DNA from: Erysipelotrichaceae bacterium
GTDB lineage: Bacteria > Bacillota_I > Bacilli_A > Erysipelotrichales > Erysipelotrichaceae
Assembly (NCBI GenBank): GCA_017473335.1
Contig: JAFULN010000014.1
Coordinates: forward strand, 1 to 64,000
Length of the DNA stretch: 64,000 nt
Reading direction: 5' to 3'
Shown: positions 59,767-61,209 of the stretch, piece after piece
How the letters are laid out: each line of letters begins with the position of its first letter
Numbering within the stretch: position 1 is the first letter of the stretch
Made by a program: the position numbers and the translations under genes
Notes under the pieces: generated by a model
What the model was told of the DNA's origin: nothing
The model's database searches: none
The model's input: only the letters and a program-made list of their open reading frames with translations

Positions 59767-61209
59767 CTAGATTTCTTCTCCGTTAGAACGTATTACATTC
59801 TGATACCATGCAAATGAATCCTTTTTATATCTTTTTCTAGAACCAGTTCCATCATCATTGATATCAACATAAACAAAACCATAACGCTTGCTCATTTCAT
59901 TTGTTGTACAACTTACAATATCGATAGGTCCCCATGGACAGTATGCAAATAAATCAACCCCATCATAAATTGCCTCTTTGATTGCAAGCACATGTTCTCT
60001 TAGGTAATCAATACGATAACCATCGTGAATCTGATAATCTTCTGTTAATTCATCCAATGCACCTAATCCATTTTCTGCAATCATCATTGGAATGCAATAA
60101 CGATCATAGTATAAATTCAATGAATTTCGTAATCCCAGTGGATCTATTGACCACCCCCAAATTGAAGCTTTAAGAAGTGGATTTTTAGAAATATCATTTA
60201 ATCCCTTGTTATTCTTTTCGTATGAGTTCATTCTGCTGTAATAATAGCTAAACGCCATAAAATCTGCTGTATATTCTTTAATTACCGCTAAATCTTCCTC
60301 TGTCATTTCGATATTGAAATTCTTTTCTTCAAAGAATCGATATGCATAGCCTGGATAAGAACCTCGAATTCTTACATCTGTATAGAACATCTGTGACATC
60401 TGATTCTTCTGATATGTATAAAATACATCCTCCGGTTTTGCAGTTTCAGCATAACAGTTATGATCCGAAATCATGACGCCCATTTTCATGTTTTCATCGA
60501 TTTCTTTAGCTGCTTTTTGTGCAAGAGAACACGCCACAAATTGATGGTGAATTGCTTGATATTTTGCCTCCTCAAGATTTTCGACACGATCACATAAAAT
60601 ACCCAATGAGTTAAATGATTCTACATAAATTAAGTTAATCTGATTGATCAATATCCAATACTTGACTTTTGAATGATATCTTTCAAAGCATACCTTGCAA
60701 TATTTCACAAACATATCAATCACTTCTCGATTTTTCCATCCACCGTATTTTGTAACAATATTTAAAGGGATTTCATAGTGGAATAGAGTAATGATAGGCT
60801 CCATACCATATCCAACTATCGTATCAATCAAATCGTCATAAAATTTCAAACCTTCTTCATTCGGTTTTTCATCATCTCCATTAGGGAAAATTCTCGCCCA
60901 GTTAATAGACGTTCTAAAACACTTTAGTCCCAACTCATGCATCAATCTTAAATCTTCTTTATATGTGTGATAAAAATCAATTCCATTTCGCTTAGGAAAT
61001 TGACTATCATCATGGATTTTCATCAACTCTTCTAAACGACTTGACGTCATCTCTGAATCTTCATCACGTTTACCTGCTCGATTCAAATTCGGATTATGCC
61101 AATCCAAATCAGGTACTGAAAGACCTTTTCCGCCTTCTTTCCAAGCACCTTCGCATTGATTAGCAGCTACTGCTCCTCCCCATAAAAATTTTTTTGGAAA
61201 CCCCTTCAT
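59767..61209 (-). CDS. GH1 6-phospho-beta-glycosidase with Gln at the acid/base position
   Basis: 480 residues, GH1 TIM barrel. N-terminal [14 protein letters not shown], sugar-binding SINWARIFP, nucleophile Glu379 in MMIAENGLG, and the phosphate-binding segment [10 protein letters not shown] with a basic YKKDSFAWY tail point to a 6-phospho-beta-glycosidase. In GH1 enzymes the acid/base residue is the Glu of NE near residue 170-190; here it reads ILINQINLI, with Gln190 (codon CAG at 60640-60642). Plant myrosinases carry Gln at this place and cleave thioglucosides. Activity on S-glycosides or activated aglycones is thus possible; reduced activity is the alternative. RBS GAGAGGTACAT. Confidence 0.9.

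Follow-up and report, generated by a model that had tools for sequence, protein, structure and literature searches.

What can a glycoside hydrolase of family 1 (GH1) do when its acid/base glutamate is replaced by glutamine? This question is raised by a locus of an Erysipelotrichaceae bacterium of the gut (assembly GCA_017473335.1, contig JAFULN010000014.1, positions 1–64,000; this whole stretch of 64,000 nucleotides is hereinafter the window). The reading frame at 59767–61209 is open over 480 amino acids on the minus strand, whereas the plus strand there is full of stop codons. The original prediction had read residue 190 as Gln, encoded by CAG at 60640–60642; this reading is borne out, on the minus strand, which the prediction had left out. 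The features of the locus, in their minus-strand order, are as follows.

63385–63648, minus strand: 87-aa protein upstream of EIIB, in the same place in the relative L224
62935–63246, minus strand: phosphotransferase system (PTS) EIIB of the lactose/cellobiose family (PF02302, 4.4e-07)
61597–62922, minus strand: PTS EIIC of the lactose/cellobiose family (PF02378, 2.5e-39; TIGR00410 above its cut-off)
61261–61587, minus strand: PTS EIIA of the lactose/cellobiose family (PF02255, 5.6e-26)
59767–61209, minus strand: GH1 6-phospho-beta-glycosidase with Gln190 at the acid/base position (open reading frame, Pfam and structural match)
60640–60642, minus strand: codon CAG of Gln190, the acid/base position (translation of the minus strand)
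60073–60075, minus strand: codon of Glu379, the retained nucleophile, motif IAENG (computed as 61209-3*378)
59881–59889, minus strand: codons of K441-R442-Y443, phosphate-binding tail MSKRYGF (computed from the start codon)
59063–59764, minus strand: 233-aa membrane protein between GH1 and the regulator (about four hydrophobic segments above threshold)
57174–59066, minus strand: regulator with HTH_11, Mga, PRD and EIIA-2 domains in a LicR-like layout (domain search)
56542–57165, minus strand: Cys-rich protein, PSC..CCR..CxxC..YCNSC, with a remote likeness to CCG/HdrB domains
55930–56523, minus strand: YczE/YitT-type membrane protein (NF052291, 3.4e-20, below cut-off)

A Pfam search identifies Glyco_hydro_1 (PF00232) in the 480-aa protein with an E-value of 7.6e-117 and 391 bits against a gathering score of 22.6; the cut-offs of the BglA/AscB-type subfamily models of NCBIfam are not reached, the best model giving 541.3 of 623 bits. 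The nearest solved proteins are 6-phospho-beta-glucosidases, namely 6wgd (E = 8e-149), 3qom and 2xhy (BglA). In the alignments with solved homologs (6wgd, 3qom, 3pn8 and 2xhy), Gln190, within the context YWILINQIN, lies opposite the Glu of (T/L)FNE, and the acid/base Glu in NE(P/I), a usual feature of GH1, is absent. Glu379 (AENG) and the phosphate-binding tail, which had been described as intact, are confirmed by translation and alignments, so that the predicted natural loss of the acid/base Glu from an otherwise intact GH1 phospho-glycosidase stands, with the residues of the -1 subsite kept. Its sequence places the protein among GH1 enzymes of the 6-phospho-beta-glucosidase type, Gln standing in for the acid/base Glu.

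This genome encompasses seven GH1 genes, two of which were each hit in two parts, and the six besides the window gene encode Glu at the acid/base site. The best six matches in relatives, those above approximately 545 bits (G026, G009, G008 twice, G048 and G058), all have Gln, as does the 87% identical GH1 of L224. A DNA motif scan of genome contigs for YWIxxNQIN selects Gln by construction; most of the matches listed encode GH1 of the Gln type and come from Bacillota, Actinomycetota, Pseudomonadota, Chloroflexota and Spirochaetota, with the Gln codon being CAA in at least 74 and CAG in at least 47, so that both codons are in use. A set of 126 GH1 proteins was therefore rebuilt from whole-protein profile and similarity searches, which avoids the circularity of the motif; in this set, 42 proteins have Gln and 84 have Glu in the acid/base column. 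The original prediction had surmised a Gln subfamily of GH1 and proposed an alignment and a tree of its members: such a subfamily does exist, the 42 proteins being monophyletic, with one change needed (SH-aLRT 99), when column 190 is masked. An 85-row tree with the same masking supports the Gln clade at 100/99. A sequencing error or a one-off mutation at residue 190 is ruled out by this clade; all close relatives have Gln as well. A different contig of this genome (L059, G000:C16:1-14000) bears four GH1 genes in tandem at 2019–9058; in one of them (7598–9058), which may be unusual too, ILESGSG replaces the ENG around the nucleophile, and the acid/base site reads FNEIS.

The Gln clade nests inside the bacterial Glu types, and no reversion to Glu is seen. 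Because of this placement, the Glu to Gln change is most simply explained by a single event at the base of this large bacterial clade. The Gln is kept in the clade although a return to Glu would need one base change only. The motif is carried by 3 of the 21 genomes of the genus Lactiplantibacillus, and a DNA search of E. coli genomes for the Gln gene of an Escherichia sp. gives zero matches. A marine Chloroflexota species is among the hosts. Genomes with a Gln-type gene often have a Glu-type GH1 as well, and in five loci (L041, L042, L045, L095 and L175) the two are adjacent, as if sharing labour. No natural Gln member is present among the closest solved structures, and an earlier description of a Gln-type bacterial GH1 clade was not found in open full-text papers, although one may exist elsewhere. 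Within the open literature searched, this suggests that a monophyletic, PTS-linked Gln branch of bacterial GH1 has been overlooked.

Residues Q18, H144, N189, Y323, W351, E379, W426, K441 and Y443 are invariant or nearly so in both the Gln and the Glu sets; in particular, the nucleophile E379, as well as K441 and Y443 of the K-x-Y phosphate tail, are found in 42/42 Gln-type and 84/84 Glu-type proteins. The positions altered along with Gln190 in the clade are 186 (L/M to I), 187 (T to V/L/P/I), 188 (F to V/I) and 424 (T to C/Y). A comparison of alignment columns finds no compensating acidic residue, His or Cys that the Gln clade conserves and the Glu set lacks. An AlphaFold2 model built on 34 aligned sequences (pLDDT 92.3, pTM 0.94) has the barrel fold of GH1; its closest match is 6wgd (Z 57.3, rmsd 1.4 over 454), with 4ipn, BglA-2 with thiocellobiose-6P, also near (Z 54.1). 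The analysis establishes the residues, the fold and the clade, together with a conserved gene context.

The lactose/cellobiose-type PTS that had been attributed to this enzyme is indeed encoded next to it, by the EIIA, EIIC and EIIB genes at 61261–63246 on the minus strand. The window operon runs in the order 87-aa protein, EIIB, EIIC, EIIA, GH1, membrane protein, regulator, Cys-rich protein and YczE-type protein, and the portion from EIIB to the regulator recurs in L224 and partly in L254. The 233-aa membrane protein is without a Pfam family but has a counterpart in the same place in L224 (about 52% identity) and L254. Among 60 Gln loci with enough flanking sequence, a Lac-family PTS gene lies near 55 (at least two subunits in 52), a homolog of the PRD regulator near 42 and a one-piece beta-glucoside PTS near 5. 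In the Lactobacillaceae sample, the Gln type is accompanied by a split Lac-family PTS and a regulator, whereas the Glu type mostly goes with a one-piece beta-glucoside PTS. In most cases the Gln gene is the sole GH1 of its PTS operon.

Additional genes in the Gln loci encode an EamA transporter (10/89), HPr (8/89) and Enzyme I (4/89). Enzyme I genes of their own are present in L101, L110, L112 and L123 (a Synergistaceae MAG, an Enterobacterales MAG, Paenibacillus and Izhakiella), and three of these loci also contain HPr. The Cys-rich protein adjoins a Gln-type GH1 in five loci (the window, L061/L252, L077, L226 and L253), and in a sample of the family, 7 genomes have a homolog of it, which lies next to a Gln-type GH1 in 4 of the 7. 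Given that remote homologs of this protein also sit elsewhere (L255–L257), it is a lead rather than an argument for the substrate. The YczE/YitT-type protein appears again beside Gln-type GH1 genes of distant genera (L040, L041, L112, L127, L140, L166, L175 and L310). Apart from this locus, the window encodes a 706-aa protein (48259–50379, minus strand) that shows a weak likeness to ADP-ribosyl-glycohydrolases, below the cut-off of the model (dinitro_DRAG, 27.9 bits).

A retaining glycosidase that lacks the acid can still reach the glycosyl-enzyme stage when its aglycone departs easily, and Gln can hold the water for the second step, as in the QE-type plant myrosinases, where ascorbate serves as the base. 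These plant enzymes show that Gln together with Glu is enough for an easily departing aglycone, and, catalysis of this kind being possible, an acid-independent phospho-glycosidase is favored. The window GH1 is thus probably a retaining phospho-glycosidase that dispenses with protonation of the leaving group and acts on 6-phospho-glycosides whose aglycone leaves by itself. The catalysis, regulation and export that we infer would proceed as follows. The dedicated EIIB-EIIC-EIIA system would import a beta-glycoside and phosphorylate it at C6; the K441/Y443 tail would grip the phosphate while Glu379 attacks the anomeric carbon; the aglycone, a good leaving group by itself, such as a thiolate, carboxylate, acidic phenolate or enolate, would depart unprotonated; and Gln190 would do no more than orient water, the glycosyl-enzyme being hydrolyzed, perhaps with an outside base, to free hexose-6-phosphate. 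The PRD regulator would turn the operon on when its sugar is present, and neighboring membrane proteins may export the aglycone, the YczE/YitT-type protein being a possible candidate.

The original prediction went further, to phosphorylated S-glycosides or other activated glycosides as possible substrates, by analogy with plant myrosinases that use Gln at this place. The analogy holds for the QE-type enzymes, which are classed in GH1 without the acid/base Glu, so that this residue is not obligatory in the family, but fails for the EE-type myrosinases PEN2 and PYK10, which have Glu (PMC6691170). As a special case of an acid-independent enzyme, a specific phospho-myrosinase could be envisaged, in which thioglucosides such as glucosinolates enter through the PTS and are then cut at the S-glycosidic bond by the Gln enzyme. 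It would account for a Gln/Glu pair identical to that of the QE type and for the Cys-rich neighbor in five loci, and a PTS combined with a GH1 phospho-glucosidase is the proven route for sinigrin in Companilactobacillus farciminis, where CfPttS imports and phosphorylates the compound and CfPbgS cleaves it (PMC8660893). However, Gln by itself does not imply an S-glycoside substrate. S-glycoside chemistry does not demand Gln: the EE-type enzymes have Glu, and in L. plantarum 8 of the 11 GH1 phospho-glucosidases are reported to be 6-phospho-beta-thioglucosidases (PMC10360150), with Glu181 at the acid/base site of Lp_3525; the one-piece beta-glucoside PTS of the proven system pairs with Glu-type GH1 in the Lactobacillaceae sample; and the hosts, including the marine Chloroflexota species, range beyond habitats linked to Brassicales. 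We therefore consider this narrower reading rather unlikely. That relatives which are most likely of the Glu type cleave phospho-thioglucosides also counts against an acid-independent enzyme in general, since Gln is then not needed to gain such an activity. Phospho-thioglucosides are accordingly one candidate class of substrates, not singled out, and S-glycosides one possibility alongside esters of glucose and glucosides of enols or acidic phenols; a commoner class of activated glycosides would suit so broad a host range no less well than glucosinolates.

Hydrolysis of ordinary O-glycoside phosphates at a near-normal rate, with the proton coming from the substrate, a bound ion or a side chain that has changed its position, would be in keeping with the intact binding site, the sugar-PTS operon and the spread of the clade in fermenting bacteria rich in beta-glucoside systems. 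In the established GH1 geometry, however, the 6-phosphate of the sugar points away from the glycosidic oxygen, and the clade has gained zero conserved acidic residues or histidines. In addition, according to the titles of 4ze5 and 4zfm, the engineered Gan1D-E170Q is a catalytic mutant, and its complex with cellobiose-6-phosphate was solved (4zfm); therefore the Glu to Gln change hampers the cleavage of ordinary O-glycosides, which makes this explanation improbable. A transglycosidase, a ligase or a sugar-phosphate-binding sensor without turnover is a possible role given that Gln genes often occur in genomes with Glu-type enzymes, in five loci as tandem pairs, and Glu-to-Gln variants of retaining glycosidases are in use as ligases, but it is similarly improbable because the Glu379 nucleophile, needless for a pure binder, is invariant (42/42) and most Gln genes are the lone GH1 of a PTS operon.

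Returning to the acid-independent phospho-glycosidase, a Listeria relative may bear on the origin of the substrates. The Listeria monocytogenes copy (L219; 97% to the other Listeria copies in the set) is flanked by genes for succinate-semialdehyde dehydrogenase and an ABC-F protein. We take this region, from gene order rather than sequence, to be lmo0914–lmo0918, with the GH1 gene presumably being lmo0917. Transcripts of lmo0917 increase in soil extract (PMC3179493). If the identification is correct, this induction fits plant-derived substrates, while being silent on the bond that is cleaved.

The Gln-type genes viewed as examples are annotated merely as glycoside hydrolase family 1 proteins; therefore pathway predictions likely assign ordinary beta-glucosides, e.g., cellobiose, to them. 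If the clade needs activated aglycones, it would mark those bacteria of gut, food and soil that can free sugar together with bioactive aglycones by splitting thioglucosides, acidic phenol glucosides or esters of glucose. The Gln clade is a natural experiment in the replacement of a catalytic acid. A bolder proposal, which we advance tentatively, is that the clade gave up general acid catalysis for good and constitutes a new class of acid-independent phospho-glycosidases, with either 1-O-acyl glucose phosphates as natural substrates or phospho-thioglucosides, the latter in a phospho-myrosinase route that would operate in bacteria of gut, food and soil.

The known systems closest to the window GH1 are the 6-phospho-beta-glucosidases of the BglA/AscB type (6wgd, 3qom, 2xhy and 4ipl/4ipn), with which it shares the fold (Z 54–57, 46–51% identity), the nucleophile, the phosphate-binding tail and the PTS partner; these enzymes, however, have Glu at the acid/base site, whereas the Gln clade has Gln, along with replacements of T187, F188 and T424. 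The CfPttS/CfPbgS system of C. farciminis follows the same scheme, import and phosphorylation by a PTS and then GH1, but employs a one-piece IIBCA beta-glucoside PTS and the P-loop protein NukS (PMC8660893), in contrast to the separate EIIB, EIIC and EIIA of the lactose/cellobiose family and the PRD regulator in the window. The classical QE-type plant myrosinases (TGG) are GH1 enzymes that combine a Gln acid/base with a Glu nucleophile, like Q190/E379 (PMC6691170); unlike these, the window enzyme nests among bacterial 6-phospho-glucosidases, is fed by a PTS and is intracellular. Among the 60 matches listed, bacterial 6-phospho-glucosidases score at about 1e-140 and plant GH1 chains at about 1e-49 to 1e-56, the trees being those of bacterial GH1, and what the window enzyme has in common with plant myrosinase probably arose by convergence at a single residue. 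Finally, Gan1D-E170Q (4zfm, 4ze5) is a GH1 phospho-glycosidase with the same change of the acid/base Glu to Gln, but there the substitution was made by hand to trap substrates, whereas in this bacterial clade the Gln is native and conserved.
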